NCBI RefSeq assembly: GCF_000231445.1
Contig: NZ_AGFR01000003.1
Coordinates: 620,001-684,000, forward strand
DNA length: 64,000 bases
Reading direction: 5' to 3'
Origin: Commensalibacter intestini A911
Lineage (GTDB): Bacteria > Pseudomonadota > Alphaproteobacteria > Acetobacterales > Acetobacteraceae
Part shown: piece after piece, positions 7,404 to 59,093 of the stretch
Layout of the letters: the number at the start of each line of letters is the position of its first letter
Numbering within the stretch: position 1 is the stretch's first letter
Translations under genes and position numbers: made by a program
The notes under the pieces: generated by a model
The model's input: the letters and a program-made list of their open reading frames with translations, nothing else
Told to the model about the DNA's origin: nothing
Database searches by the model: none

Positions 7404-9518
7404 TTAAAATATTGATGTTGAGTATTTTGTACGAATAATAAATAAAGCAAATGCTTGGATAAAAGCAGCTTCTTTTAATGAATCATATCGCCCAGCGGTT
7501 CCACCATGTCCTGTATCCATGTTGATTTTTAGTAATAATGGTGCATTGGAAAGATTATATTCTCTTAACTTTGCAATCCATTTGGCAGGTTCCCAATAAG
7601 TGACTCTGGGATCAGTTAGTCCTCCAATTGCGAGGACAGCAGGATATTCTTGTTTCTTGATGTTATCATAAGGTGAATAACTTGCAATATATTGATAAGC
7701 TTCTTTATCTTCGATTGGATTTCCCCATTCTGGCCATTCGGGTGGTGTTAGAGGTAAGGAAGTATCAGACATGGTGTTCAGAACATCGACAAAAGGAACA
7801 ACTGCGATGATGGCTGCAAACAGGTCAGGACGTTCATTGGCAATATATCCCATGACCATACCACCAGCAGAGCGACCATCAGCAACAATAAGACCTGCTT
7901 TTGTATAATTTTGTTCAATGAGATGATCTGCACAACAAATAAAGTCAGTAAAACTATTTATTTTGTTAAATTTGCGTCCTTGTAAAAACCAATTCCATCC
8001 TTTTTCGGAACCACCTCTGACATGAGCAATCGCATAGATCCAGCCTTGGTCTAGATAATTTAATGCGCTATTAGAGAATGTCGGGTCAATAGCATATCCA
8101 TAAGAACCATACCCATAAAGGAGAATAGGTGTTTTTCCATCTAAAATGGTATCTTTATGATAGGTAATGGTAATTGGAATTTGCTCGCCATCTTTTGCCG
8201 TCGCCAATAAGCGTTTTGTTTGATATTTTTCAGGATCGTGACCCGAAGGAATTTCTTGAACTTTCAGTGTTTTTCTTTCTCCCGTAATCATATTATAATG
8301 ATACCAATGACGAGGGGTGGTCGGAGACTGATAGCTATATCTCAACCACTCTGATTGATCGGTAAGGGTTTCGTCTAAAGATAAAACAAAAGCTTCTTCT
8401 TCGCCCGTTAATAAAGTGTCTTTGCCGTTTTTATCAGTAATAATCAGACGTGTATTTACGTTATGACGTTCTAGACGAATCAAATAGTATTGATAAGCAA
8501 TAACTTCCATTATGTAAGTTTGTGGATCATGTTGAATCCATTCTTGCCAATTTTCAGAGGATAAAGAAACATCGGATAATTGTTGAGGATCAGGTAATGC
8601 CATCCGCATGAGTTTAAAATTATCGGCATGATTAAGGTTGGTTTTAATCATAAAATGACCCTGCCAGTCGGTTAACTCATATTGAATACCGACTTGACGT
8701 TTCATGACACAGATAGGTGAGGCTGTGGGATCTTCATATGAAAGAAGCCAGGTTTCATTGGTATCATGATCATTGGCAGTAATAAAAATCCACTTGTTCG
8801 ATAAGCTTCGTTCGATAGAGAGGAAAAAGCCAGGATCTTTTTCTTCGTAGATAAGCGTATCTGTGCCAGAAGAAAGCTCGTGTCTGAATATTTGTGTAGG
8901 GCGTCCGTGATTGTCTCGATAGATCCAAAATAAATAATGGCTACAAGGAGAGAACGTAAATTGTCCTGCACAATTTGGAATAGTTTGCGGTAAAAGGTTC
9001 CCTGTATGTAAGTCTTTGATACGAATGTCCCATATTTCAGAACCTTGTGTATCTTCTGCATAGGCAAGATATTGATGGGTAGGGCTATGTTCGATATAGC
9101 CAACTTTATAATAGTTAGATTTTTTTGCTTCTGTATTCGGATCAAGAATAGTTTGTTCTGTAGGATCTTGAATAGACTTGCGATAATAGGTTTTATACTC
9201 GTTTCTGCTTTCATATCGAGAAAGGTAAATCCAATCGCCGTCTTCAAGCTCTGGGCTGCTATCTTTATCGACAAGACGATTTTTCATGGATTGAAATAGA
9301 TCTTCTTGTAACGCTTTGGTAGGTTCAAGATAACTTTCTGTATAAGCATTCTCGGCAATTAAATAGGTTTCAATATCTTTTCTTAAAGATTTAGGATTCT
9401 GTAATACTTCTTGCCAGTGTTCGTCTTTGATCCAAGCATATGCATCTGTGCGTTGATAACCAAGCTGTTCAATATGTGTGATTTGTTTTGACGCAATTGG
9501 AGGTGAAAGAGGTTTCAT
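7404..9518 (-). CDS. ptrB: Oligopeptidase B (prolyl oligopeptidase family S9A)
   Basis: Serine peptidase that cleaves short peptides after basic residues, normally cytosolic (no signal peptide is seen). The N-terminal two-thirds form the beta-propeller that gates the active site; the C-terminal hydrolase domain starts near residue 430. The catalytic triad is Ser550 in DGRSAGG, Asp636 in LTDPRVTYW and His671 in DTGHGG. The motif YGYGSYGYAIDPTFS before the nucleophile is typical of the B subfamily. At 704 residues it is full length. GGAT before the ATG is a plausible ribosome signal. It is the first gene of an operon with the AI-2E transporter. Confidence 0.92.
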   Translation of the reverse strand: MKPLSPPIASKQITHIEQLGYQRTDAYAWIKDEHWQEVLQNPKSLRKDIETYLIAENAYTESYLEPTKALQEDLFQSMKNRLVDKDSSPELEDGDWIYLSRYESRNEYKTYYRKSIQDPTEQTILDPNTEAKKSNYYKVGYIEHSPTHQYLAYAEDTQGSEIWDIRIKDLHTGNLLPQTIPNCAGQFTFSPCSHYLFWIYRDNHGRPTQIFRHELSSGTDTLIYEEKDPGFFLSIERSLSNKWIFITANDHDTNETWLLSYEDPTASPICVMKRQVGIQYELTDWQGHFMIKTNLNHADNFKLMRMALPDPQQLSDVSLSSENWQEWIQHDPQTYIMEVIAYQYYLIRLERHNVNTRLIITDKNGKDTLLTGEEEAFVLSLDETLTDQSEWLRYSYQSPTTPRHWYHYNMITGERKTLKVQEIPSGHDPEKYQTKRLLATAKDGEQIPITITYHKDTILDGKTPILLYGYGSYGYAIDPTFSNSALNYLDQGWIYAIAHVRGGSEKGWNWFLQGRKFNKINSFTDFICCADHLIEQNYTKAGLIVADGRSAGGMVMGYIANERPDLFAAIIAVVPFVDVLNTMSDTSLPLTPPEWPEWGNPIEDKEAYQYIASYSPYDNIKKQEYPAVLAIGGLTDPRVTYWEPAKWIAKLREYNLSNAPLLLKINMDTGHGGTAGRYDSLKEAAFIQAFALFIIRTKYSTSIF

Positions 9519-42843: not shown

Positions 42844-43209
42844 ATGCAGGCTATTTTAGGTAATTATTTACCAGTGCTGATTTTTGGAGTGATTTCATTA
42901 ATTATAGCATGTGCTATGTTGGGGGCAGCATTATTTTGTGCGAAACAAAAACCTTATGCTGAAAAAAATTCCCCTTATGAATGTGGATTTCCAGCGTTTG
43001 AAGATGCGCGTCAATTGTTTGATGTGCGTTATTACTTGGTGGGTATTCTGTTTACGATTTTCGATCTTGAAATGGTTTTTTTATTCCCATGGGCGCTAAC
43101 ACTTTCCAAAATTGGAATGTTTGGTTTTTTTTCAATGCTCGCTTTCCTTGTCGTTCTAACCGTTGGGTTTGTATATGAGTGGTGCAAGGGTGCATTGGAG
43201 TGGGATTAG
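42844..43209 (+). CDS. nuoA: NADH-quinone oxidoreductase subunit A
   Basis: Membrane-arm subunit of complex I, 121 residues with three helices (about 10-32, 60-82, 90-112). The quinone-site loop between helices 1 and 2 carries KQKPYAEKNSPYECGFPAF, with the conserved cysteine. The segment FDVRYYLVGILFTIFDLEMVFLFPWA identifies the family. First gene of the nuo operon; an ATG right after AAAGAGTTATCTC. Confidence 0.97.
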   Translation: MQAILGNYLPVLIFGVISLIIACAMLGAALFCAKQKPYAEKNSPYECGFPAFEDARQLFDVRYYLVGILFTIFDLEMVFLFPWALTLSKIGMFGFFSMLAFLVVLTVGFVYEWCKGALEWD

Positions 43210-43268
43210 GTTAACAAAGATAACGTGGGTAATTATTAAACAGATTTATATCTGTAAATGAGATTGTG

Positions 43269-43844
43269 ATGAATCAGAATATGACAGAAAACTCTGGTCT
43301 TGAAAAAGTCTATTGGAATCAAGATGCCTTGCCGCCAGGGGCAGAGCAAGATGCAGTAATCAAAGGCATTACTGGAGCAATTACAGATAAAGGATTTGTG
43401 GTTGCTAAGTTGGATCAATTAATCAACTGGGGTAGAACAGGCAGTCTTTGGCCAATGACTTTTGGTTTGGCGTGTTGTGCGGTTGAGATGATTCATGCGT
43501 ATATGCCGCGATATGATTTGGATCGTATGGGGGTTGTTCCGATGGGATCTCCTCGTCAAGCAGACGTGATGTTAGTAGCTGGAACCTTAACGAATAAAAT
43601 GGCTCCAGCTTTGCGTCGTTTGTATGATCAAATGTCTGAACCTCGTTGGGTTTTATCTATGGGTTCATGTGCAAATGGTGGTGGGTATTATCATTACTCA
43701 TACTCTGTCGTCAGAGGGTGTGACCGTATTGTGCCTGTTGATGTTTACGTCCCTGGATGTCCACCAACAGCTGAGGCATTAATTTACGGTATTATGTTGT
43801 TGAAGAAGAAAATTCAAAGAACAGGGACAATTATCCGTGGTTGA
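43269..43844 (+). CDS. nuoB: NADH-quinone oxidoreductase subunit B
   Basis: Carries cluster N2, the last Fe-S centre before quinone. The four ligands are in GLACCAVEM (tandem cysteines), [12 protein letters not shown] and [11 protein letters not shown]. 191 residues from the ATG at 43269; a GTG directly before it and an ATG four codons later are alternatives. It overlaps nuoC by eight bases. Soluble, at the junction of the two arms of complex I. Confidence 0.97.
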
Positions 43845-44505
43845 TGATCATATTGATACATGCAAAAATAGCTTTATAAACATGCCTCGCTTACAAGCGA
43901 TCAGTTTTATGTTGTGTACCTCTGTTAAAGGGGTCGTAAAAGCAGATTTTGAACAAGATGAGCTGGTGGTTGTGGTTGAGTTAAGTCATCTAACTGATTT
44001 GTTGATTTTGCTTAAAGAACATCCTTTATGTCGTTATGAGCAATTGATGGATTTGTGTGGTGCTGATTATCCGCAACGTGCAGATCGTTTTGATGTTGTT
44101 TATAATCTGTTATCGATTTCGTTGAATCAGCGTATTCGAGTGATTACCCATACCGACGAGCAAACACCTGTTCCTTCTGTGCGCAATTTATGGAAATGCG
44201 CAGATTGGTGGGAACGTGAATGTTACGATATGTTTGGTGTTTTGTTCTCTGGGCAGCCTGACTTGCGTCGGATCTTAACAGATTATGGTTTTGATGGGCA
44301 TCCTTTGCGTAAAGATTTCCCTTTAACAGGATATGTTGAAGTGCGTTATGATGCGGATCAAAATAAAGTGGTTTATGAGCCTGTAACGTTGACTCAGGAT
44401 ATGAGAGATTTTGACTTTGACTCTCCTTGGGAGGGGTTGGTTACCTTACCAGGTGATGAAAAAGTTCATGAGAAACGTCAAAATATTAAGCCGTATTCTT
44501 TGTAA
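43837..44505 (+). CDS. nuoC: NADH-quinone oxidoreductase subunit C
   Basis: 30-kDa-type subunit of the hydrophilic arm, 222 residues, without cofactors. The C-terminal signature [24 protein letters not shown] and [22 protein letters not shown] are typical. It is separate from nuoD, as in alphaproteobacteria. The start is a GTG that overlaps the nuoB end; an ATG 15 codons later is possible, and neither has a strong ribosome signal. Confidence 0.95.
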
Positions 44506-44538
44506 TAACATTCAGTGTAATCGGCAAAAGGATATTTG

Positions 44539-45789
44539 ATGAGTGAAGTGATTAAAAAAGAATTAGCGACAAAAGCGCAAGAGTTGAATGCTGAAGTAAA
44601 GCAAAATGTTTCTCGCGTTTTATCTGGTGATTCACATACCTTAAATTTTGGCCCTCAACATCCATCTGCGCACGGTGTGTTACGTGTTGTGATGGAGTTA
44701 GAAGGGGAAGTTGTTAAGCGTGCGACGCCTCATATTGGGTTGTTGCATCGTGGAACAGAAAAACTATTAGAGCATAAAGCGTATCATAAAGGGCTTCCTT
44801 ATTTTGATCGGTTGGACTATGCATCTCCTATGTGTGAAGAGCATGCATATGTTCTTGCAACTGAAAAGTTGCTGCGTGTTGATGTGCCTGACCGTGCTAA
44901 ATGGATCCGCGTTTTATTTGCAGAAATTACTCGTATTTTAAACCATTTATTGAACGTAACAGCAATGGGCTTGGATTGCGGTGCGATGACACCAGCATTA
45001 TGGGCTTATGAAGAGCGTGAAAAAATGATGGAATTTTATGAAGGTGTGTCTGGGGCACGTTTTCATGCGAATTATTTCCGTCATGGTGGTGTGGCAAAAG
45101 ATTTGCCTGCTGGAATGGAAGATAGAATTGGAAAATGGGTTAAAGATTTTCCAAAAATTGTTGATGATATTGAAGGGCTATTAACAAACAATCGTATTTG
45201 GAAGCAAAGAACGGTTGGTATTGGTGTTTGTACGACTGAAGAAGCATTATCATGGGGTTTTTCTGGGCCTTGTTTACGTGCTTCTGGGGTTCCTTGGGAT
45301 CTTCGTCGCTCTCAACCTTATGATAACTATGATAAAGTCGATTTCCAAGTTCCTGTTGCTCGTCAAGGGGATTCTTATGATCGTTATTTGATTAGAATTG
45401 TTGAAATGCGCGAGAGTGCTAAGATCATTGAGCAATGCTTAAATAAAATGCAACCTGGTGCAATTAAAGTTGAGAGTGAAAAAGTTTCACCACCAAAGCG
45501 CAAAGATATGAAGCATTCTATGGAATCTTTAATTAATCACTTTAAGCTTTATAGTGGTGGTTTTCATGTTCCTGCTGGAACTACTTACACTGCTGTTGAA
45601 AGTCCTAAAGGAGAGTTTGGGGTTTATCTTGTTGCTGATGGTGGAACGAAACCTTATCGTTGTAAAATACGTCCGACAGGGTTTTCTCACTTGCAAGCAT
45701 TAGGTGAGTTATCACATCGTCATATGTTGGCTGATATGGTGGCGATTATTGGCTCTATGGATTTGGTTTTCGGTGAAGTGGATAGATAG
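44539..45789 (+). CDS. nuoD: NADH-quinone oxidoreductase subunit D
   Basis: 49-kDa subunit that forms the quinone cavity with NuoB. The conserved [33 protein letters not shown] and the C-terminal [18 protein letters not shown] are present, including the quinone-site His and Tyr region near HPSAHG. 416 residues from the ATG (44539; AAAGGA six bases upstream), normal. It is seven bases from nuoE. Confidence 0.97.
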
Positions 45790-45795
45790 GGCGTT

Positions 45796-46425
45796 ATGTC
45801 AGAGAAATCTATGAATATACAACCTGCTGAATTTGCTTTCGATCAAGAAAGTAACCAGCAAATTGAAAAAATATTAGCAAAATATCCTGCTGCACGAAAA
45901 GCAAGTGCTGTGATTCCGTTATTATATGTGGTGCAAAACCAGATGAAGCGGTTAACAAAAAGCGCATGGGTTCCAAAGGTTGCAATGTCTGTTGTTGCGA
46001 AACGTTTAGAAATTGCGCCTGTTCGTGTGTTTGAAATTGCAACATTTTATACGATGTTTAACTTAGAGCCTATTGGTGAATATCATTTGCAAGTTTGTGC
46101 AACAACACCATGTTGGTTGCGTGGTTCTGATGATATTGTTGCAGCTTGTAAAAAAGCAACGGGTATTAAAGAATTCGGCCAAACTAGCGATGATGGAATG
46201 TTTACGCTTTCTGAAGTCGAGTGTTTAGGGGCATGTGCGAATGCGCCTATTTTACAGGTTGATCATGATTATTATGAAGATATGACTGCGGAAAGTACGA
46301 TCAAATTGATTGACCTCTTACGTCAAGGCAGTAAGCCAGAGCGTGGGCCAATGATTGATCGTTTTAATTCTGCACCTGTGGGTAAGAAATTTTCACAAAA
46401 TACAGGGGCCGAAGATGTTAAGTGA
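45796..46425 (+). CDS. nuoE: NADH-quinone oxidoreductase subunit E
   Basis: 24-kDa subunit with the [2Fe-2S] cluster N1a in a thioredoxin-like domain. Four cysteines follow the pattern [11 protein letters not shown] and [15 protein letters not shown]. 209 residues. The C-terminal 35 residues (about 175-209) are a variable tail. Its end overlaps the nuoF start by 11 bases, indicating translational coupling. Confidence 0.96.
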
Positions 46426-47737
46426 TAAGGATCGTATTTATCTTAATTTACATGGTCATGATGATTGGAAATTGGCTGGTGCACGTCGCCGTGGAGACTG
46501 GGATAACACAAAAGATATCTTAGCTCTAGGTCGTGATACCATTATTAAAACTGTCATTGATTCAGGACTGCGTGGTCGTGGTGGTGCAGGCTTCTCCACA
46601 GGTTTAAAATGGTCTTTTATGCCTAAGAAAGAAGGGCCTTTGCCTCATTATCTTGTAATTAATGGGGATGAATCAGAGCCAGGGACGTGTAAAGATCGTG
46701 AGGTTATGCGTCATGAGCCACATAAAATCGTTGAAGGGGCATTATTGGCTTCTTTTGCGATTGGTGCGCATACAGCATATATTTACATTCGTGGTGAGTA
46801 TTATAATGAGGCAAACCATTTACAAGCTGCAATTGATGAAGCTTATGAAGCTGGCTTAATTGGTAAAAATGCTTGTGGTAGTGGTTGGGACTTTGATTTT
46901 TATATTCATCGTGGTGCTGGTGCTTATATTTGTGGTGAAGAAACAGCTCAGCTGGAAAGTTTAGAAGGTAAAAAAGGGCAACCTCGTTTAAAACCTCCTT
47001 TCCCTGCTGGTAAAGGTTTGTATGGTTGTCCAACAACCATTAATAACGTTGAAAGTATTTCTGTAACACCAACAATTTTACGTCGTGGTTCGGCATGGTT
47101 TGCGGGAATTGGTCGTGCAAATAATACTGGGCCTAAATTAATGGCGATTTCTGGTCACGTGAATACACCTTGTGTTTTTGAAGAAGCACTTGGATTACCA
47201 TTAAGAGAGGTAATTGAAACTCATGGTGGTGGTGTTCGTGGTGGATGGGATAATCTATTAGCTGTTATTCCTGGTGGCACGTCCATGCCGATGTTAAACA
47301 AAGAAACCTGTGAAACAGTCATCATGGATTTTGATGGTATGCGAGATGTTGGTTCTGGTTTAGGAACTGCTGGTATTGTGGTTATGGATAAATCAACAGA
47401 TATTATCCGTGCAGTTACATTGCTTTCAAAATTTTATAAGCATGAAAGTTGTGGGCAATGTACACCATGTCGAGAAGGTTCTAACTGGGTTCTGAAAGTT
47501 ATGAAGCGTATGACTGAAGGTCGTGCAGAAATTGAAGAAATTGATATGCTGATGGATGTAACCAAAAGTATTGAAAACACAACGATTTGCGCAATGGGAA
47601 TGTCCGTTGCTTGGCCAGTTCAAGCATTAATTCGCAACTTCCGTCCTGTGATGGAACAACGAATTATGGATTATAAGAAGTCCCGTGGTGGAGCATCACA
47701 AATTCAGGTGCCTGTTAATGCACCAGTAGGGGGCTAA
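46415..47737 (+). CDS. nuoF: NADH-quinone oxidoreductase subunit F
   Basis: 51-kDa subunit that binds NADH and FMN and carries [4Fe-4S] cluster N3. FMN and NADH site motifs are [16 protein letters not shown] and [19 protein letters not shown]; the cluster ligands are in [12 protein letters not shown] and TTICAMG. The ATG at 46415 starts [11 protein letters not shown] and gives 440 residues; an earlier in-frame ATG inside nuoE adds a non-family leader. Adjacent genes supply the other clusters of the NADH module. Confidence 0.96.
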
Positions 47738-47743
47738 TAAGAT

Positions 47744-49807
47744 ATGGCAAAAGTAATTGTAGATGGTATTCCTATAGAAGTGCCAAATGGTTCTTCTGTA
47801 TTACAAGCTTGTGAAGCTGCGGGAAAGGAAATTCCTCGTTTTTGTTATCATGATAAGCTGTCTGTTGCTGGAAATTGCAGAATGTGTATGGTTGAAATTA
47901 CAGGTTCTCGTAAACCTTTGGTTTCTTCTTGCTCTCAGCCTGTAATGGAAGGGATGCAGGTTACTACAGATTCTGAAACTATTCGTGCAGCACGTCGCAG
48001 TACAATGGAGTTTTTGTTAATTAACCATCCTTTGGATTGTCCAATTTGCGATCAAGGTGGTGAGTGTGACTTACAAGACCAAGCTGTTGGGTATGGACGT
48101 GATTGTTCTCGCTTTAAAGACGATAAGCGTGCCGTTGTTGATAAGTATATGGGGCCGCTTATCCGTACAGTGATGACACGTTGTATTCAATGTACACGTT
48201 GTGTTCGTTTTACGAATGAAATTGCAGGAACAGCTGAACTTGGTGGGATTTTCCGTGGCACAAATATGGAAATTACCCCTTTTATTGAGCAAAGTTTGGT
48301 TTCAGAGCTTTCTGGTAATTTAATTGATGTTTGTCCTGTCGGTGCGTTGACTTCTAAACCAACAGCATTCCATTTTCGTTCATGGGAATTGAAAAATACC
48401 GATTCAATTGATGTTGTTGATGCTGTTGGCACAAATATCATGCTTCAAGTGCGTGGTAACGAAGTAATGCGTATATTGCCTCGTAAGAATGATGATGTGA
48501 ATGAAGAGTGGCTTTCTGATAAAGGACGTTTTTCTTTAGATGGATTGAAACGTCGTCGTTTAGATCGTCCTTGGATTAAAAAGAATGGTAAACTTGTTGA
48601 ATCTTCTTGGTCAGAAACCGTTCAATATGTTGCTGATAAATTAAAAACAATTGCTGCTGATCGTATCGGTGCGATTGCTGGTGATTTATGTGATGCAGAA
48701 AGTATGCTCGCATTAAAACAGCTTATGAATGCTTTAGGATCATCAAATACAGATTGTCGTCAAGATAATGCATATTATGATGTTTCTAAACGTGGGCATT
48801 ATGTATTTAATACTTCGATTGCTGGTATTGATGATGCAGACGCTTTGTTGGTAATTGGTTCATTCCCAAGACAAGAAGCCCCAGTTTTAAATGCACGTAT
48901 TCGTAGACGTTGGTTGTCTTTAAGTGAGCAATTCCCAATTGGATACATTGGGGAGCTTCCAGATAATCCAACTTACAAAGTTGATCAATTAGGTGTAAGC
49001 CCAGAGTTGATTGACGAGCTATTATCAGGAAGTCATGCTTTTGCAGAAACGTTAAAAAATGCGAAGCGTCCAATGATTATTCTAGGTCATGGTGCGTTAA
49101 CTCGTCCTGATGCTAAAGTTATTTTTGAAAAAACAATGGCATTAGCAAAAGTTATTGGCGCTGTTTCTGATGATTGGAATGGCTTTAACGTGTTACATCA
49201 TGCAGCCTCTCGTGTTGCTGGTCTTGATTTAGGCTTTATCCCACAAGGACAAGGTAAAGATATTGCTGCTATGGTGAATGGTGGTGTTGATGCTTTATGG
49301 ATGTTAGGTGCAGATGAAGTTGATCTTTCAGCGTTGAGTCCAGAGTGCTTTGTGATTTATCAAGGACATCATGGTGAAAAAGCAGCATCTCGTGCAGATG
49401 TCGTTTTACCTGGTGCTACTTATACCGAAAAATCTGGAACATATGTCAATACAGAAGGGCGTGTTCAACGCAGCTTCCGTGCGATTTGTCCTCCAGGGGA
49501 AGCAAAAGAAGAATGGTCAATTATTCAGTTGATTGGTCAAGCACTATCCGTTGAACAACCTTATCATGACTTTGAAACGTTACGTCAGTATATGGCTGAG
49601 GTAAATCCAGTGTTTGCACAGCAAGGGTTAGTTAAAAATTCTGTTGATGTTTCTGTGGGTGATGCAGTGCAAGGAAACTTTGAAAAACAAGCGCTTAACG
49701 CCGTTATTTCAGATTATTTCTTAACGAATTCTATCAGCCGGGCAAGTTTGACAATGAACGAATGTTCGAAGTTGCGTTATGCACCTTCGGCTGAGGCAGC
49801 GGAGTAA
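47744..49807 (+). CDS. nuoG: NADH-quinone oxidoreductase subunit G
   Basis: 75-kDa subunit of the NADH module, 687 residues. The N-terminal ferredoxin domain has the [2Fe-2S] cysteines in [15 protein letters not shown] and SSCSQP. Next come the [18 protein letters not shown] cluster site and the [4Fe-4S] segment [10 protein letters not shown]. The rest is a molybdopterin-oxidoreductase-like fold without cofactor. Length is typical of the alphaproteobacterial and mitochondrial form. Confidence 0.96.
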
Positions 49808-49812
49808 TCGAC

Positions 49813-50838
49813 GTGGAACATTTCTTTTTTCATACGATGGTTGGATCGATTATTCTGATTGTCTTAAAAGTTCTTGCAGTGTTAGTACCTTTATTAATGG
49901 GGACTGCTTATCTAACTTGGTTAGAACGTAAAGTTTTAGCTGCAATTATGCTTCGTAAAGGACCTAACGTTGTTGGGCCTTTTGGGTTGTTGCAACCTTT
50001 TGCTGATGCTGTAAAAATGATTTTCAAGGAAACCATTATTCCAGCCAAAGCAAATCGTGTTATTTTCTTTGTAGCACCTGTTATTGGTTTTGCGCTTTCT
50101 ATGCTGGCATGGGCAGTTATTCCTACGAATGATGGTTGGGCTGTTGCGAACTTAAATATTGGTATTTTGTATTTGCTCGCGATATCATCAGTTAGTATCT
50201 ATTCAACATTGCTTGCGGGTTGGGCTTCTAACTCTAAATATTCTTTGTTAGGAGCTATGCGTGCTACAGCACAGATGATTTCTTATGAAATTTCAATGGG
50301 TTTGGTTATCGCATCAGTGTTATTGCTTGTTGGTAGTGCAAACTTGAATGATATTGTGTTGGCGCAAAAGCATGTTTGGTTTTTCTTACCAATGTTCCCA
50401 ATGTTCATTATTTTCTTTATTTCATGTTTAGCTGAAACAAATCGTCCACCTTTTGACTTTGCTGTTGGTGAAAGTGAGTTGGTTGCAGGGTTCTTCGTTG
50501 AATACTCTTCTATGGCGTTTGGTTTATTTTTCTTGGCTGAATATGGCAATATGATTTTGATGTCTGCCATTACCAGTATTTTGTTTTTGGGTGGATGGTT
50601 GCCTCCAATTGATTGTGCGCCATTTACATGGATCCCTGGGCCATTTTGGTTAATTATTAAAATTTTAGTTTGCTTGTTCTGCTTTATTTGGGTTCGAAGT
50701 GCATTCCCAAGATATCGTTATGATCAATTAATGCGTTTGGGATGGAAAGTATTCTTACCATTCTCTTTGACATGGGTTGTATTAACTGCTGCGTTTTTGA
50801 TGATTACAGGCATTGGTATTTATGGAGGTGCAGGTTAA
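49813..50838 (+). CDS. nuoH: NADH-quinone oxidoreductase subunit H
   Basis: Membrane subunit that closes the quinone chamber; 341 residues with about eight helices. Seen: [39 protein letters not shown] (family core, first part) and [23 protein letters not shown]. The start is GTG, five bases after the nuoG stop. Next to nuoI, which overlaps in neither direction. Confidence 0.96.
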
Positions 50839-50839
50839 A

Positions 50840-51328
50840 ATGGGTTTTATTGATAGAACAGCACGATCCTTTTTGCTGTCAGAATTATTGACAGGCTTAG
50901 GAATTACGCTGCGTTACTTTTTTAAACCAAAAGCAACGTTAAATTATCCGTACGAAAAAAGCCCATTGTCTCCTCGTTTCCGTGGAGAACATGCGTTACG
51001 TCGTTATGCAAATGGTGAAGAGAGATGTATTGCTTGTAAATTATGTGAGGCAACATGCCCTGCAGAAGCAATTACGATTGAAGCCGAAGCAAGAAGTGAT
51101 GGTTCAAGAAGAACCACACGATATGATATTGATATGACCAAATGTATTTATTGTGGTTTGTGTCAGGAAGCATGTCCTGTGGATGCTATTGTTCAAGGGC
51201 CCAATTATGAGTTCGCAACCGAAACCCGTGAAGAGCTAATGTATAATAAGTCAAAATTATTATCTAATGGCGATCAATGGGAAAGTGCTTTGGCATTAAG
51301 GTTGGAACAGGATGCCCCTTATCGGTAG
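50840..51328 (+). CDS. nuoI: NADH-quinone oxidoreductase subunit I
   Basis: 23-kDa subunit with two [4Fe-4S] clusters (N6a, N6b): [16 protein letters not shown] and [16 protein letters not shown]. An N-terminal amphipathic segment (about 1-35) docks on the membrane arm. The ATG at 50840 (one base after nuoH, GGAGGTGCAGG upstream) starts [15 protein letters not shown]; an earlier ATG inside nuoH is not family sequence. 162 residues is standard. Confidence 0.96.
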
Positions 51329-51344
51329 GCGGGAATTAATAACA

Positions 51345-51410
51345 ATGATGAATAACATGTTTTTATTACAAGTAGGCCTTGTGCCCCTACAAAAAGGATC
51401 AGGGTCATGA
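51345..51410 (+). CDS. Possible 21-residue leader peptide coupled to nuoJ
   Basis: In the 78-base gap between nuoI and nuoJ an ATG-ATG frame of 21 codons (MMNNMFLLQVGLVPLQKGSG and Ser) ends in a TGA that overlaps the nuoJ start as ATGATG. GCGGGA lies about 13 bases upstream of its ATG. It may be a translated leader that couples ribosomes to nuoJ, or chance. Confidence 0.3.
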   Translation: MMNNMFLLQVGLVPLQKGSGS

Positions 51411-52141
51411 TGCCAATTATTCTTTTTTATATTTTTGCAGTGATTTTGCTGTTATCAGCCGTTATGGTTGTTTCTTCTCGCAACTCTGTCCATGCCGCTT
51501 TGTTCTTGGTTTTAGCATTTTGTAATGCTGCTGGATTATTCTTAATCGCTGGTGCAGAATTTCTCGCGATCTTATTGATAGCGATCTATGCTGGTGCGGT
51601 TATGATTTTATTCCTTTTTATTGTCATGACAATGCAAACCAATTTGGTTCAATTAAAAGAAGGGATGCAGCATTATATGCATGTTGGCTGTTGTATTGCA
51701 GCTATCCTTGTCGTTGAACTTATTCTTGTTGCAATTAACTGGCATGTTGATCCGCTAGTTGCGGAAGCAGCACGTCAACCATTATTGGAAAACATGTCTA
51801 ATACCAAAGCTTTAGGTTCATTGATTTATACAGATTATGTATTTTTGTTCCAAATTGCTGGTTTAGTTTTATTGGTTGCAATGATTGGTGCAATTGTTTT
51901 GACCCTACGTAAGCGTCCAAATAATCGCAGACAGGTTGTGGCTCGTCAGCATATGCGTGAACCTAATCAAACCTTGGAAATGCTTTCCGTTGAATTAAAT
52001 AAAGGTGTCGATGATCTTGGTGGTTTTTTAAGGCCTAAAGATACCTATTATGGCATTGCTCAAGAAGATTCATTTGGACCAAAGCCGGGAGATAAGATGG
52101 ATATTACAGAAAAAAGACAACAACGGGAGCAATCAAAATGA
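51407..52141 (+). CDS. nuoJ: NADH-quinone oxidoreductase subunit J
   Basis: Membrane subunit next to the quinone site, 244 residues with five helices in the first 165 residues. The pattern [49 protein letters not shown] is diagnostic (the last part has the pi-bulge helix). The C-terminal 75 residues are a soluble, charged tail longer than in E. coli. AAGGA eight bases before the ATG supports the start; its end overlaps nuoK (ATGA). Confidence 0.95.
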
Positions 52142-52458
52142 ATATTTTGAACACAGTTGGTGTTGCTCCTTATATGATTGTGAGTGCGATTTTATTTGCA
52201 ATTGGTTTGTTTGGTATTTTCGCAAGTAGAAAAAATTTGATCGTTATTTTGATGTCGATCGAATTAATGCTTTTGTCTGCTAATCTTAATTTAATTGCTT
52301 TCTCTTCGGCTTTTGAAAATTTAACAGGTCAAGTTATGGTGATGTTTACCTTAACAGTTGCTGCGGCTGAATCCGCAATTGGCCTAGCGATTGTGATGGT
52401 TTATTATAGAAACCGTCATTCTGTTGAAGTTCAAGATACGACGATGATGAAAGGGTAA
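52138..52458 (+). CDS. nuoK: NADH-quinone oxidoreductase subunit K
   Basis: Small membrane subunit, 106 residues with three helices. The conserved glutamates in the membrane ([18 protein letters not shown] and [19 protein letters not shown]) form part of the proton path. The ATG overlaps the nuoJ stop. Seven bases separate it from nuoL. Confidence 0.96.
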
Positions 52459-52465
52459 TGGGAAA

Positions 52466-54412
52466 ATGACACCGGTAACATCATCGTTATTTGCAATATC
52501 AGTCTTCGCTCCTTTGGGTGGATTTTTAATTGCTGGGTTATTAGGCCGAGTTTTTGGTGATAATTTTGCTAAGTTTATTTCTATTCTAGGAATGGTTATC
52601 GCTGTTGCTTTTTCATGGTGCGTATTAGGCAGCATGTTACATTCAGGCATCAGCAGCGCAGTCGTGCCTTTAATTGACTGGATCCATGCAGGTAATTTCA
52701 ACGTCAGTTGGTACCTCAGAATGGACATGTTATCAGTATCAATGTTGACAATGGTGACGAGTGTTTCTTTGCTTGTTCATATTTACAGCATTGGATATAT
52801 GTCCCATGAAACAATGCCGACTTATCGTTTCTTTGCGTATTTGTCATTATTTACGTTCAGTATGTTAATGTTGGTGACTTCAGATAACTTAGTTGAGTTA
52901 TTCTTTGGTTGGGAAGCTGTTGGTTTATCCAGTTATTTGTTAATTGGTTATTGGTATACTCGCCCTGCAGCAGTTGCTGCTGCGATTAAGGCATTTGTTG
53001 TAAACCGTATTGCTGATTTATTTTTCCTTGTTGGGATTTGTGTATTATTCCTATTATCAGGATCTGTATTTTATGATGATATCTTCCATAAAATTCCTGA
53101 GCTAGCGAGCACACAATATCATTTATGTGGTTATAGTTTCCAAGCTTATGAATTTATTGCATTACTATTATTTATCGGTGCAATGGGTAAATCAGCTCAA
53201 TTATTCTTACATGTTTGGTTACCTGATGCGATGGAAGGACCAACGCCTGTATCTGCGTTAATTCACGCGGCTACTATGGTGACGGCAGGTATCTTCTTGA
53301 TGGCACGTATGTCTCCATTGGTCGAATTTGCTCCACATGTAAAAATGTTTATCGTAATTATGGGGGCAACGACTGCGTTCTTTGCAGGAACCGTTGCTTT
53401 GGCACAACCTGATATTAAGAAATCTATTGCTTACTCAACATGTTCTCAGTTGGGATATATGTTTGTTGCTGTGGGTGTGGGTGCTTATCAAGTTGCAATG
53501 TTTCATTTGACAACCCATGCATTCTTTAAGGCTTTATTGTTCCTTGGTGCTGGCTCTGTAATCCATGCACTACACGACGAACAAGATATGTTCAAAATGG
53601 GTGGTTTATCTAGAAAGCTACCAGCAACTTGTTTATTAATGTGGATCGGTTGTTTGGCGTTGGGTGGGATTTTCCCTTTTGCAGGATATTGGTCTAAAGA
53701 TGCTATCTTAGAAGCTGCATGGATGTCTGGTGGTGCTGTTGGTCATTATGCTTGGATTATGACGGCGTTAACTGCGTTTTTAACAGCATTTTATAGCTGG
53801 CGTATCTTGTTCTTGGTATTTCATGGTAAACCAAGAGATCAAAAAATATATGATCATGCACATGAATCTTCTTTTGTTATGACATTGCCAATGTGTGTAT
53901 TAGGGGCAGGGGCAACCTTTGGTGGTTTTGTTTTAGCACCTTACTATATTGGTAAACACCAAGTTGCTTTTTGGAATGATTCTATTTTCAATGCGCCAAC
54001 AAATCATATTATGACGTTAATGCATCATACCCCTGAATTGATTGCAAAAACACCGTTAGCGCTTGGTATCTTAGGGATTATTGTAGCTTATATTTGTTAT
54101 ATTGTTGTACCTAAAATTCCTGAATCTCTGGCTACTAGCTTAAAAGGCGTATATCAATTTTTGTTAAATGCATGGTATTTCGACAAATTATATGACTTTA
54201 TTTTTGTTCGTCCTTACGTCGCATTATCAAAAGCTTTATGGAAAGTTGGGGATCAAGAAATTATCGAAGGAATGCCTGTGGCTGTTGCACGAATTACAGA
54301 TCGTTCAGCTAAAGGGCTTTCTTGGATGCAAAATGGATCTTTTGCGTTTTATGCTTTTACCATGGCAATTGGGTTGGTGGTGGTTCTTGCCACTTTCCTG
54401 ATCTATCAATGA
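52466..54412 (+). CDS. nuoL: NADH-quinone oxidoreductase subunit L
   Basis: Distal antiporter-like proton-pumping subunit of complex I, 648 residues. The diagnostic segments are FFGWEAVGLSSYLLIGYW, GAMGKSAQLFLHVWLPDAMEGPTPVSALIHAATMVTAG (first part enough) and STCSQLGYMFVAVGVGAY. The C-terminal part includes NAWYFDKLYDFIFVRPY, typical of the alphaproteobacterial lateral helix region, and ends with its own stop, so it is complete and not fused. The next gene, 24 bases on, is nuoN instead of nuoM. Confidence 0.96.
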   Translation: MTPVTSSLFAISVFAPLGGFLIAGLLGRVFGDNFAKFISILGMVIAVAFSWCVLGSMLHSGISSAVVPLIDWIHAGNFNVSWYLRMDMLSVSMLTMVTSVSLLVHIYSIGYMSHETMPTYRFFAYLSLFTFSMLMLVTSDNLVELFFGWEAVGLSSYLLIGYWYTRPAAVAAAIKAFVVNRIADLFFLVGICVLFLLSGSVFYDDIFHKIPELASTQYHLCGYSFQAYEFIALLLFIGAMGKSAQLFLHVWLPDAMEGPTPVSALIHAATMVTAGIFLMARMSPLVEFAPHVKMFIVIMGATTAFFAGTVALAQPDIKKSIAYSTCSQLGYMFVAVGVGAYQVAMFHLTTHAFFKALLFLGAGSVIHALHDEQDMFKMGGLSRKLPATCLLMWIGCLALGGIFPFAGYWSKDAILEAAWMSGGAVGHYAWIMTALTAFLTAFYSWRILFLVFHGKPRDQKIYDHAHESSFVMTLPMCVLGAGATFGGFVLAPYYIGKHQVAFWNDSIFNAPTNHIMTLMHHTPELIAKTPLALGILGIIVAYICYIVVPKIPESLATSLKGVYQFLLNAWYFDKLYDFIFVRPYVALSKALWKVGDQEIIEGMPVAVARITDRSAKGLSWMQNGSFAFYAFTMAIGLVVVLATFLIYQ

Positions 54413-54436
54413 TTTTAGAAAGTCAGGATTAATCCG

Positions 54437-55861
54437 ATGAATTGGACACTTGCTATTCCAGAGATTGTTTTATCAATCAGCGGTCTTATTATTCTTTTAT
54501 GGGGCGCGATTCAAAAGAAAGGAAATGCTTTCTTTCCTTGTGCAATCGTCTCTATTGCTGCGTTTATTGCAGTAGGTTTTTTAACGTTAACGGTTTCTAA
54601 TGGCGTTGGATATCATGGGTTATTTATCAATGATGAATTCGCCCGTTATATGAAATTGTTGATTATTATTGCTGGATTTTTATGTATCATTTTATCTATT
54701 GATTTTAATGGAAAGAACGATACGAATTGCTTCGAATTTATTGCATTAATTGTATTCTCTACCGTTGGTGCAATGGTCATGGTTTCATCAAATGATTTGA
54801 TGACTTTGTATATGGGGCTAGAGTTATCTTCTTTGGCTTTATATATTTTATGTGCCATTGATCGTAAAAATGTATTCTCAGCAGAATCTGGCGTGAAATA
54901 TTTTATTTTAGGCTCCGTGGCTTCTGGTATTTTACTTTATGGAATTTCCATGATTTATGGTTTTTCTGGAGGAATGGGTTACGAAAATATTCACCATGTT
55001 ATTGCTTCTGATCATGGATTATCAGCTGGCTTTGCAATTGGGCTTGTTTTTGTTCTTGTTGGACTATGCTTTAAAATTTCTGCGGTTCCATTTCATATGT
55101 GGACACCAGATGTGTATCAAGGCGCACCAACACCAGTAACAACATTCTTGTCAACAGCACCTAAATTTGCAGCATTTGCATTGTTCTTACGTTTGATGGT
55201 TGGCCCTTTTGGTCATTTAGCACCACAATGGCAGATGTTAATTGAAGTTATTGCAATTCTATCTATTATTATCGGTAGTGTCGGTGCAATTGCTCAAACA
55301 AATATTAAACGTATGATGGCATATTCTTCTATTTCACATATGGGATATGCTTTGGTTGGTTTAGCTGCTGCAACACCTGAAGGTATTACTGGTACGTTAA
55401 TTTATTTAACAACCTATTTATTCATGAATGTTGGAACATTCGCAGTGATTGCAGCAATGTCTCGCAAAGGACATATGGTTGAAAATATCAATGATCTTGC
55501 TGGATTAGGCAAAACAGATCCTGGTATCGCAACTGCAATGGCGATTTTTATGTTTAGTATGGCAGGTGTGCCGCCTTTAGCTGGGTTCTTTGGTAAGTTC
55601 TTGGTATTTAAAGCGGCACTTGCTGCTGATCTATATACATTAACAATTATTGGTTTATTAGCTAGTGCTGTAGGTGCATTCTTCTACTTACGTATTGTAA
55701 AGATTATGTTCTTTGATAAGGCTGCAGAGGCTTTAGATAAACGTTCTTTATCTTTATCATTCATTACGTTTAGTATGGGTACAATCACAGTTGTATTTTT
55801 GCTCTTTTTATCCCCAATGTTACAAATGGGGCAAATCGCAGCACAATCTCTATTTCAATAG
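54437..55861 (+). CDS. nuoN: NADH-quinone oxidoreductase subunit N
   Basis: Antiporter-like proton-pumping subunit nearest to NuoK, 474 residues with about 14 helices. It is clearly NuoN, not NuoM: MGLELSSLALYILCAIDR, KISAVPFHMWTPDVYQGAPTPVTTFLST and QTNIKRMMAYSSISHMGYALVG are NuoN forms, while the HTWLPDAH-type segment of NuoM is absent. CAGGA upstream of the ATG serves as ribosome signal. In the usual operon nuoM stands between nuoL and this gene. Confidence 0.95.
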   Translation: MNWTLAIPEIVLSISGLIILLWGAIQKKGNAFFPCAIVSIAAFIAVGFLTLTVSNGVGYHGLFINDEFARYMKLLIIIAGFLCIILSIDFNGKNDTNCFEFIALIVFSTVGAMVMVSSNDLMTLYMGLELSSLALYILCAIDRKNVFSAESGVKYFILGSVASGILLYGISMIYGFSGGMGYENIHHVIASDHGLSAGFAIGLVFVLVGLCFKISAVPFHMWTPDVYQGAPTPVTTFLSTAPKFAAFALFLRLMVGPFGHLAPQWQMLIEVIAILSIIIGSVGAIAQTNIKRMMAYSSISHMGYALVGLAAATPEGITGTLIYLTTYLFMNVGTFAVIAAMSRKGHMVENINDLAGLGKTDPGIATAMAIFMFSMAGVPPLAGFFGKFLVFKAALAADLYTLTIIGLLASAVGAFFYLRIVKIMFFDKAAEALDKRSLSLSFITFSMGTITVVFLLFLSPMLQMGQIAAQSLFQ

Positions 55862-55875
55862 TTTTGTAGGTTAAG

Positions 55876-56637
55876 GTGGATAATAGAGTTACCTGGCAGG
55901 TAGAGCATTATCCAACCTTGCCATCAACAAATGATTATTGTATCGAGCAAGCCAGATTAAAGAGTAAAATTAATCTGGCTGTTTTGACAGATTCCCAGAC
56001 GGCTCCACGAGGAAGTCGTGGTCGTAAATGGGTTGAGCCGACTGGAAATCTTGCATTATCTTTTTTATATTGGCCGACATTTTCTGTTAAAAAAGTAGGG
56101 TGGGTACCCTTTATAGCATCTTTGGCATTATATGATGCGATTACGGAACTCTGTGGTGATTATCCTGACTTATATATAAAATGGCCGAATGATTTGCTGT
56201 TTCAGAATAAGAAAATCGCAGGAATTTTAATTGAAAGCCATGTTGAATATCCTGATATTTTAGAATGGTTAGTGATTGGAATAGGTTTGAATATCTGTTC
56301 AGCACCTGTGGTTGAGGGGCGCGAAGTAGCATGTTTACGTGATTTTGTTCATACAAATTTACCAAGTTCATTACTCGTTTCTTCAAAAATTAGAGAGCGA
56401 CTATCCTATTGGATAGGCTGTTTAGATCAAGGAAAAGAACTATTTATTCGAGAAACTTGGTTACAAAGAAGCTTACCAATGGATACATCCTTGTCAGTAA
56501 CGAGTAGTAAAAAAATATATACTGGTATATATAAGGGAATTAATAAGGAAGGGTTTCTGTTATTACAGACAGAAACAGGTTTAAAACATTTATCAGCTGG
56601 AGAGCTGTTTTGTTTAGATCAGTATGGGAATAAGTAG
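55876..56637 (+). CDS. birA: Biotin--[acetyl-CoA-carboxylase] ligase
   Basis: Attaches biotin to the carboxyl carrier protein of acetyl-CoA carboxylase. Motifs: [25 protein letters not shown] (biotinyl-AMP site), [20 protein letters not shown] and VIGIGLNI. 253 residues with no N-terminal helix-turn-helix, so it is a class I enzyme that does not repress biotin genes. The start is GTG (AAGG just upstream). It follows nuoN by 14 bases and is read through with nuo, coaX and rnj, an alphaproteobacterial conserved run. Confidence 0.93.
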
Positions 56638-56639
56638 AC

Positions 56640-57428
56640 GTGCTTTTAGTAATTGATGTTGGGAATACAAATATTGTATTTGCAGTTCATGATGGAAAGG
56701 ATTGGCTTGGAACGTGGCGTTTTGCAACGACAGTGAACCGTACTTCTGATGAATATGCTGCGGCTTTACTCGTATTACTTGAAAAGCAAAATATTCCTAT
56801 TGAAAAAATTACACGTGCAATTATTGGGACTGTTGTTCCACCCGTTTTATATCAGCTCCTTTTATTATGCCGTAAATGGTTTTCGGTTGATCCTATCGTT
56901 GCTTCGGCTTCTTTGGATTGGGGGTTCGAGATTAGAACAGATAATCCACAAGAAGTTGGGGTTGATCGTTTATTAAATGGGTTGGCTGCGCATCAATTAT
57001 ATGGCGGGCCATTGGTGGTTGTCGATTTAGGGACTGCGACGACATTTGATATTGTTGATAAAGATGGAAATTATTGTGGAGGGGTTATTTCACCTGGATT
57101 AACTCTTTCTTTGGAAGCATTGCATAGTGCTGCGGCTAGATTGCCTAGAATTGGTTTTGGAAGACCTCAGTCTGTTGTTGGAAAAGAGACAGTTGGGGCG
57201 ATGAAGTCTGGTATTTACTGGGGATATATTGGGCTTATTGAAGGTATTATAGAAAGAATTAAACTAGAATATTCTGTATCTGAGATGACAGTTGTTGGTA
57301 CAGGGGGGTTGGCACGATTATTAGCTGAAGGCACCTCTATTTTTAAAGAAATTAATGCAGAGTTAACTCTGGAGGGATTGAAAATCCTTGCAAATCGAAA
57401 TTCACTGGGAAATAAAAAAGATAAATAA
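56640..57428 (+). CDS. coaX: Type III pantothenate kinase
   Basis: First step of coenzyme A synthesis, phosphorylating pantothenate. The ASKHA-fold motifs are [15 protein letters not shown] (phosphate loop 1), [18 protein letters not shown] and [19 protein letters not shown] with [15 protein letters not shown]. 262 residues. GTG start two bases after the birA stop. Type III enzymes are not inhibited by CoA. Confidence 0.95.
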
Positions 57429-57446
57429 ATATAGAAAAGGGTAAAT

Positions 57447-59093
57447 ATGAATGAAGATGTAAACGATTTCGCCTTTCTCCCATTAGGGGGAACGGGTGAG
57501 ATCGGCATGAATTTTAATCTCTATCGATTAAATGGAAAGTGGTTAGCAATTGATTGTGGAATTGGGTTCAGTGGCAATGATATGCCAGAAGCTGATATCT
57601 TGGTTCCTGATCCTGAATTTATTGCGCGTCAAAATGAGAATTTATTAGCACTAGTGATTACGCATGCTCATGAAGATCATATTGGTGCTGTTGCTTATCT
57701 TTGGCCGGATTTAGAATGTCCTGTGTATGCAACGCCATTTGCAGCTTCGATTTTACGACGTAAACTCCGAGAAGCCGGTTTATTAGAGGACGTAAAAATC
57801 CACCTGATTAAAATGGGTGATCATTTAAAAATTGGTGAATTTGATCTGGAATTTATTCCTGTGACGCATTCTATTCCAGAGGCTCAAAGTGTATTTATTC
57901 GTACGCCTTATGGAAATGTATTGCATACTGGGGATTGGAAGCTTGATCCAGAACCTGTCATTGGTGATATTACAGACCTTGATAAATTTGCAGAGCTAGG
58001 ACGTGAAGGTGTCTTGGCAATGGTCTGTGATAGTACGAATGTGATTGTTAAGCGTGCACCAGAATCAGAAGCAGAAGTGCGTCGTAGTTTAACCGAACTT
58101 ATTGGCAGTATTAAAGGGCGTGTTGCGGTGACTTGTTTTGCCAGCAATGTCTCTCGCGTTGAGAGTATTGCTTATGCAGCAAAGCAAGCCAATCGTCCAG
58201 TTTTGATTATTGGCCGTTCGTTAAAAAATCTTGAAGTTTCAGCTAGAGAAAATGGGTATTTGGAAGGTATTCCTCCATTTTTTACCGAACAGAATATGAA
58301 TGACGTTGATTTAGATCATGTCGTTTTTATTGTGACAGGTAGTCAAGGTGAAGAGCGTTCTGCATTAACGCGTATTTCTTTTGATGTGCACCAACATATT
58401 TCTTTTGGAACTGGGGACACGGTTATTTATAGTAGCCGTACTATTCCAGGGAATGAGTTGGCAATTATGCGGGTGCAAGATAATTTAGCACGTCGTGGCG
58501 CAAGGGTTATTACATCACGCGATCATTTTGTTCATGTTTCTGGGCATGCTTGTTATGAGGAAGTCTGTGAACTTTATAAAATTGTTCAGCCTGCTTATGG
58601 GGTTCCAGTGCATGGAGAGTGGGTTCATTTAAATGCACAAGCAAATGTTGCCAAAGAGCATAATGCAGAGCCTATTTTGCTTGAAGATGGTGATATTTTA
58701 CGTTTAGGTCCAGGAAAACCGAAAATTGTTGGCAGTGCGCCTACTGGACGGTTAGTGATTGATGGTAGCCGTTTGTTATCTGTTGATGGTGATGTTTTAT
58801 CTGCCCGTCGTCGGATGTTATATAATGGTGTTGTTGTAGCCAGTTTTGCAGTGAATATGAATGGAGATCTGTTAAGTGATCCAAACATTAGTGCACCCGG
58901 TTTGTTTGACCAGCATGACGAAGAATTTGACGATGTGATTGATGAGTTCGGAGAGTTGGTTGAGCGTTTACCTCATAGAGTACGTTTAAATGATGATGAA
59001 TTGGTGGATAACGCCAAAGTCGTGTTACGTCGTATTCTTGGGCGTAGGTTAAAAAAGAAACCGATGGTTGATATTCATTTATTGCGTCTTTAA
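57447..59093 (+). CDS. rnj: Ribonuclease J
   Basis: Metallo-beta-lactamase/beta-CASP nuclease of 548 residues for 5'-3' exonuclease and endonuclease RNA processing. Zinc site ITHAHEDHIGAVAYLWP, then HTGDWKLDP, GSQGEERSALTRIS and VSGHACYEEV are present. Alphaproteobacteria use RNase J for 16S and 23S rRNA 5' ends. AAAGGG upstream of the ATG. Ends with its own terminator, so this appears to be the last gene of the nuo-birA-coaX-rnj transcription unit. Confidence 0.94.
   Translation: MNEDVNDFAFLPLGGTGEIGMNFNLYRLNGKWLAIDCGIGFSGNDMPEADILVPDPEFIARQNENLLALVITHAHEDHIGAVAYLWPDLECPVYATPFAASILRRKLREAGLLEDVKIHLIKMGDHLKIGEFDLEFIPVTHSIPEAQSVFIRTPYGNVLHTGDWKLDPEPVIGDITDLDKFAELGREGVLAMVCDSTNVIVKRAPESEAEVRRSLTELIGSIKGRVAVTCFASNVSRVESIAYAAKQANRPVLIIGRSLKNLEVSARENGYLEGIPPFFTEQNMNDVDLDHVVFIVTGSQGEERSALTRISFDVHQHISFGTGDTVIYSSRTIPGNELAIMRVQDNLARRGARVITSRDHFVHVSGHACYEEVCELYKIVQPAYGVPVHGEWVHLNAQANVAKEHNAEPILLEDGDILRLGPGKPKIVGSAPTGRLVIDGSRLLSVDGDVLSARRRMLYNGVVVASFAVNMNGDLLSDPNISAPGLFDQHDEEFDDVIDEFGELVERLPHRVRLNDDELVDNAKVVLRRILGRRLKKKPMVDIHLLRL

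Follow-up and report, generated by a model that had tools for sequence, protein, structure and literature searches.

Does a bacterium whose nuo operon has no nuoM make a complex I with one proton pump fewer? The question is raised by a 64,000-nucleotide stretch of the Commensalibacter intestini A911 genome (contig NZ_AGFR01000003.1, positions 620,001 to 684,000 of the forward strand; hereafter the window), in which nuoL is followed directly by nuoN, with no gene between them for the antiporter-like pump subunit NuoM. We found an intact nuoM elsewhere on the same contig, and the comparisons described below leave us highly confident that this is an ordinary, vertically inherited alphaproteobacterial complex I, with nuoM at a second chromosomal site after a single move and a normal 14-subunit, three-pump enzyme.

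The nuoL-nuoN junction

The operon runs from the start of nuoA at 42844 to the end of nuoN at 55861 in the order A-B-C-D-E-F-G-H-I-J-K-L-N, and consists of the following parts.

42844..52458, + strand: nuoA-B-C-D-E-F-G-H-I-J-K, the alpha-type nuo operon 5′ of nuoL (open reading frames of the window)
52466..54412, + strand: nuoL, 648 residues, complete; TIGR01974 777 bits (cut-off 407.5), residues 8-644
54413..54436, + strand: nuoL-nuoN junction, 24 bases, the place of nuoM in intact operons
54437..55861, + strand: nuoN, 474 residues, complete; NF004440 597.9 bits (cut-off 519), residues 3-473

NuoI, NuoJ and NuoK were recognised by family profile matches, and NuoA to NuoH were named from sequence reading and gene order. 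Because their family profiles matched over nearly the whole length, NuoL and NuoN are both full length, as the preliminary description of this locus had stated; its gene order and 24-base spacing were likewise confirmed. Inspection of the 24 bases revealed no remnant of nuoM, again in agreement with that description, and the gap is too small for a piece of any gene.

We fetched the operons of 17 other genomes with this split arrangement (16 of the 17 split family genomes named below, all except the window's own genome, G000, together with G008), using the window proteins as queries. All 17 exhibited the order A-B-C-D-E-F-G-H-I-J-K-L-N-birA with a short L-N junction, which upholds the earlier statement that the locus is not a collapsed assembly. 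Furthermore, birA follows nuoN both in these 17 and in three intact alpha-type operons viewed whole (G131, G019 and G133); the window operon therefore stands at its native locus. The 17 records that a plasmid search with the nuoL-nuoN DNA returned share 60-80% identity with it and cover no more than 18% of the query. The genes downstream of nuoN are as follows.

55876..59093, + strand: birA, coaX and rnj (open reading frames from the window, gene names by sequence reading)

An intact nuoM on the same contig

A search of the G000 genome (a 26-contig draft, 100% complete and 0.24% contaminated) for the antiporter-subunit family PF00361 gave three matches: two are nuoN and nuoL, and the remaining one, at C24:292184-293032, falls within a further gene.

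C24:291761-293329 (L004:6762-8330), + strand: lone nuoM, a 522-codon open frame with mutL on one side and a class II fumarase gene on the other

This gene and the nuo operon (nuoL start at C24:672466) lie on one contig of 971,375 bases, approximately 380 kb apart, and the genome holds one each of NuoM, NuoL and NuoN. The encoded protein matched TIGR01972 (NDH_I_M) with 549.3 bits (cut-off 263.8) over profile positions 1-481 of 486, far above its scores on NDH_I_N (156.8 bits) and on MrpD-type models (178 at most), and we thus assign it to NuoM rather than to NuoN or Mrp. The closest solved structure was 8qby_M (415 bits, residues 12-494), which we take to belong to the complex I of Paracoccus denitrificans. 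By this score the protein resembles the NuoM of the alphaproteobacterial 14-gene nuo operon; unlike in that operon, its gene does not lie between nuoL and nuoN.

Residues Glu153, Lys232, Lys263, His346 and Glu405 were kept in the G000 protein and in all 18 split rows of the alignment, as well as in the comparison with 8qby_M; we take these to be the pump residues of transmembrane helices (TM) 5, 7, 8, 11 and 12, respectively. The motif expected as HTWLPDAH reads HAWLPDAY, so an exact probe with the motif suggested in the preliminary description would miss the gene. The TTG start called for the lone gene is probably too early: the GTG at L004:6789, giving a protein of 513 residues that begins Met-His, is favoured because His occupies that column in 13 of the 18 split rows. 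Identity to NuoM of the nearest named relatives was 92% (Commensalibacter communis) and 90% (C. papalotli).

The adjacency of nuoL and nuoN had suggested two readings, namely that nuoM lies elsewhere in the genome, or that complex I lacks NuoM and has a shortened membrane arm that pumps fewer protons per NADH. The first holds. The second, for which the adjoining genes speak, is hardly credible, since an intact NuoM is encoded with its key residues in all 18 split rows, and in Acetobacter pasteurianus a separately numbered NuoM was detected and co-varied with the operon subunits in the available part of a proteome study (PMC10742644). With an intact nuoM found on the same contig, an outcome that the preliminary description had itself named as refuting its idea, we rejected the shortened-arm enzyme; the lower proton yield is likewise not supported, as a full-length NuoM with the checked pump residues is encoded.

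The draft state of the assembly could also have misled us, with nuoM truly located between nuoL and nuoN, or with the lone gene as a contaminant. We consider such an artefact practically negligible: both sites lie on one contig, the operon order recurs in the 17 further split genomes, and in G005, G008 and G021 the operon and the lone nuoM share one contig of near-chromosome size. An assembly gap at the nuoL-nuoN site was rejected on the same junction in all 17.

Distribution of the split arrangement

Comparison of the locus in relatives, which the preliminary description had also proposed, revealed nuoM apart from nuoN in 9/9 Commensalibacter genomes, on another contig in two (G001 and G003) and on the same contig, at least 180 kb away, in seven. 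Among 140 Acetobacteraceae genomes, sampled evenly, 17 had nuoL and nuoN adjoining and a matching nuoM elsewhere (G000, G002, G005, G009, G017, G021, G062, G148, G073, G153, G087, G162, G091, G165, G102, G104 and G117). This count was read by eye from three match tables (NuoL, NuoM and NuoN), and includes as not split several genomes with contig ends inside the operon, as well as the 16 of 140 genomes without a match to a given one of the three families at the limits used.

A shared insertion site and a single relocation

We examined which genes flank the lone nuoM across the 17 additional split genomes. In 15 of these mutL lies upstream on the same strand, immediately adjoining nuoM among the genes sought in 13 and separated by approximately 2 and 7 kb in the remaining two, and parE lies beyond nuoM within the fetched stretch in 14; mutL, parE or both were found beside nuoM in 16. 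Outside the clade (G131, G074 and G018), ileS, lspA, DUF3035 (named by sequence reading) and mutL stand together with no nuoM beside mutL, and the surroundings of parE (7 to 20 kb) in 13/13 outside genomes contained no other gene of the mutL block. Since mutL and parE lie apart in the outside relatives, nuoM marks a junction specific to the clade.

The 18 split rows formed one clade both in the NuoL+NuoN tree (support 100, 45 rows) and in the NuoM tree (96/88, 64 rows). In a wider NuoM tree of 88 rows, with other alphaproteobacteria and other phyla, the lone NuoM clade was nested inside the Acetobacteraceae NuoM (99), beside the operonic NuoM of G099, G031 and G127 (96) and then G160 (99); in the tree of NuoL+NuoN, the clade is joined first by G160 (83) and then by G099, G031 and G127 (93). 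A grouping of the split genomes with G099, G031 and G127 was not rejected on IleS alone in an approximately unbiased (AU) test (p 0.295). The lone nuoM is native rather than foreign, because it is nested in the family and its next relatives are nearly the same as those of NuoL+NuoN.

Rows of a second type of complex I (TYPE2, described below) and of G061 were left out of the NuoL+NuoN tree, the fixed-topology branch comparison, the AU tests on NuoM and NuoL+NuoN, and the residue-column comparison. The 88-row tree also omits six database matches with a stop sign, the split rows G005, G162, G148 and G165, and the second G044 copy; the NuoM AU test omits three split rows, and the 3-protein tree omits G061. 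The ileS match of G087 (L286, G087:C39:205678-208554) has one in-frame TGA, which may be a sequencing error or mark a broken copy.

Acquisition of the lone NuoM from outside the family, displacing the native nuoM, would agree with the long stem of its clade (0.55 in the 64-row tree, 0.62 in the 88-row tree); nesting within the family, in the same subgroup as NuoL+NuoN, makes it very improbable, and we dropped a foreign origin as lacking support. Gene order and trees together indicate one ancient relocation of nuoM before the clade, that of acetic acid bacteria (AAB), radiated. In such a relocation, nuoM would have moved once from the nuoL-nuoN site to the mutL/parE junction; the separately made NuoM would insert in the membrane and take its usual place next to NuoN and NuoL, and the product would be a 14-subunit complex I with three antiporter-like pumps. 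Rickettsiales presumably have their nuo genes scattered over several chromosomal sites; here only nuoM left the operon.

Fast change of NuoM and a genome with two copies

On a topology constrained to that of NuoL+NuoN (LN; 44 taxa, of which 17 are split), the stem branch of the split clade measured 0.544 for NuoM, 0.224 for NuoL and 0.093 for NuoN. Its NuoM/LN ratio of 3.24 was the highest of 85 branches with LN above 0.02 (median 0.83), and the adjoining deeper branch had the second-highest ratio (3.12). This comparison excludes G005 (a near-copy of G008), G072x, and the lone copies that G131, G019 and G133 carry.

The genome G131 (one 2.74 Mb contig) carries a whole A-N operon with its own nuoM (L240) and, in addition, a lone nuoM at L200:8128-9660, with counts at the E-value limits used of two for NuoM and one each for NuoL and NuoN. 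Its lone NuoM is sister to the lone NuoMs of the AAB (100/100; 100 by the Shimodaira-Hasegawa-like approximate likelihood ratio test, SH-aLRT, in two further trees). Most of the fast change falls on the branch of the NuoM tree that the G131 lone copy and the AAB share (0.55, compared with 0.085 for the AAB's own stem). Moreover, the lone nuoM of G131 lies approximately 26 kb from its parE.

One way in which the relocation could have happened, and hence a course compatible with it, is replacement by a diverged duplicate: a second-site copy changed fast beside a working operon copy, which was later cleanly deleted, G131 keeping both. Both the sister position of the G131 lone copy and the exceptional stem ratio favour this course, and AU tests of "AAB plus G131" did not reject the grouping (p-AU 0.43 for NuoL+NuoN; 0.104 for three other proteins), nor did the test of a single clade of split, G131 lone and G131 operonic NuoM (p-AU 0.069). 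The IleS tree, built without G061 and G010, placed G131 as sister to the AAB, though with a support of no more than 46/33. Other trees point away from it: the lone NuoM clade goes with the operonic NuoM of G099, G031 and G127 in the trees of that protein (99/94; 96), and not with the operonic copy of G131; the NuoL+NuoN tree places G131 with G063 (85); in the 3-protein tree, which did not resolve the position of G131, G074 (where only an operonic nuoM was found) stands next to the AAB (98/96). A placement within 26 kb of parE has a probability of approximately 2% by chance, was noticed afterwards, and is hence weak. G131 may represent a surviving two-copy stage before loss of the operon copy, or its lone copy may stem from a later transfer into G131; replacement by a duplicate is a tentative proposal, which we hold to be rather doubtful. 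The gene counts of G131 are those expected of a complex I with two NuoM pumps, a type considered for this genome only; the window's genome has one gene of each.

Two further lone NuoM genes were observed, at L201:8054-9571 in G019 and at L202:8066-9646 in G133, both genomes with complete operons, and the two proteins are mutual sisters (100/100). Both have Asn for the TM8 Lys (as does one of 28 operonic rows), and Tyr replaces His346 in one of the three lone copies outside the clade. Judged by these residues, the G019 and G133 copies may be non-pumping or repurposed paralogues.

Expression and assembly of the separate NuoM

Approximately 119 bases separate mutL from the likely nuoM start. A strong hairpin followed by a T run lies 3′ of nuoM at L004 ~8362-8404 (−23.1 kcal/mol, z −4.34); it was spotted by eye and then folded, and is absent from the list of the promoter scan around nuoM. 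Because this terminator-like hairpin stands between them, nuoM and the next gene are probably transcribed separately.

L004:8443-9894: fumC, class II fumarase gene, directly after nuoM

Among the genomes examined, fumC was found between nuoM and parE only in four of Commensalibacter (G000, G002, G005 and G008), and none was found in the fetched nuoM stretches of 14 other split genomes.

The 2016 genome paper on A. pasteurianus SKU1108 has the same split, since the available part lists nuoM (APT_00690) apart from a 13-tag nuo operon, without comment or history (PMC5158111); the relocation is thus already visible, in passing, in the literature. In the 2023 A. pasteurianus proteome, as far as its available part goes, NuoM is HN.1610, and the operon subunits are HN.3342-HN.3354 (NuoI 3350, NuoN 3354), entry numbers that would reflect gene order (PMC10742644). 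Across four comparisons the reported ratios were 0.62, 0.33, 2.16 and 1.78 for NuoM, 0.93, 0.31, 2.22 and 2.12 for NuoN, and 0.29, 0.09, 2.43 and 1.85 for NuoH (PMC10742644). In these data the amount of NuoM rises and falls with the operon subunits. The gene list and the proteome together constitute good, if indirect, evidence that the lone NuoM is produced and belongs to complex I, and we infer that in Commensalibacter it assembles into the complex with a normal proton yield.

Several observations weigh against this reading of an ordinary enzyme with a relocated gene. The expression evidence comes from A. pasteurianus rather than from Commensalibacter itself. The promoter scan lists no match in the mutL-nuoM gap (6 found in the region, compared with a shuffle mean of 6.8). 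The lone NuoM narrowly missed the equivalog NF004499 (571.8 bits, cut-off 585), and one of the 17 other split genomes, G148, has neither mutL nor parE beside nuoM. Finally, among the 196 columns that operonic NuoM conserves, 25 differ in the split clade, which would be compatible with some change of NuoM function. A stronger version holds that the AAB swapped their central pump for a duplicate that had diverged several times faster than NuoL and NuoN while the operon copy still worked, with G131 as the two-copy stage and the 25 columns as signs that NuoM was adapted to an acid-producing respiration with ubiquinol oxidase; we regard this as unlikely.

Relation to other nuo operons and to published work

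In the NuoM tree, TYPE2 complex I branches as a lineage of its own (99/97); it also occurs in 5 of the 17 split family genomes (G073, G153, G091, G104 and G117). In 12 of the 14 stretches its L, M and N genes could be recognised next to one another; in the others, G033 and one of the two of G030, recognition was limited to L and M. We observed TYPE2 operons in several Acetobacteraceae (L261, G030:C1:206000-225000; L263-L269; others), and G016, G030, G033, G079 and G110 have TYPE2 only in the family match tables. The IleS tree joins the 1.9 Mb genome G061, on a long branch, to Commensalibacter (87/83). Its L-M-N genes adjoin (L236, G061:C1:1039500-1045700), and its NuoM, likewise on a long branch, falls with TYPE2 rather than with the split genomes.

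The available text of PMC4596401 describes one nuo operon that is widespread in AAB, plus an extra nuo operon that may have been acquired by transfer, with a tree built from nuoHIJKLN; TYPE2 is probably this extra operon. Gluconacetobacter diazotrophicus has two nuo operons according to the same text (PMC4596401), and the available part of another paper lists its nuoM, together with nuoCD and further nuo genes, under Fur sites (PMC9368920). A further study treats nuo13 and nuo14 operons in Acetobacteraceae, nuoM being absent from its main text (PMC10715153); "nuo" is absent from the main text of a Commensalibacter comparison (PMC10149009), and the accessible portion of PMC12405394 contains no nuoM. 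Our literature search, which examined the papers named here and had most subscription papers outside its reach, found no paper that discusses the relocation of nuoM or its history, nor a description of the fast NuoM change on the AAB branch or of the two-copy state of G131.

Implications for complex I in acetic acid bacteria

In this family, a 13-gene nuo operon without nuoM identifies one AAB clade, not an enzyme with a reduced set of pumps, and surveys that judge completeness by the gene cluster alone could call the complex I of this clade incomplete. Should replacement by a diverged duplicate prove true, the AAB together with G131 would constitute a natural test of swapping the central pump subunit in an assembled complex.

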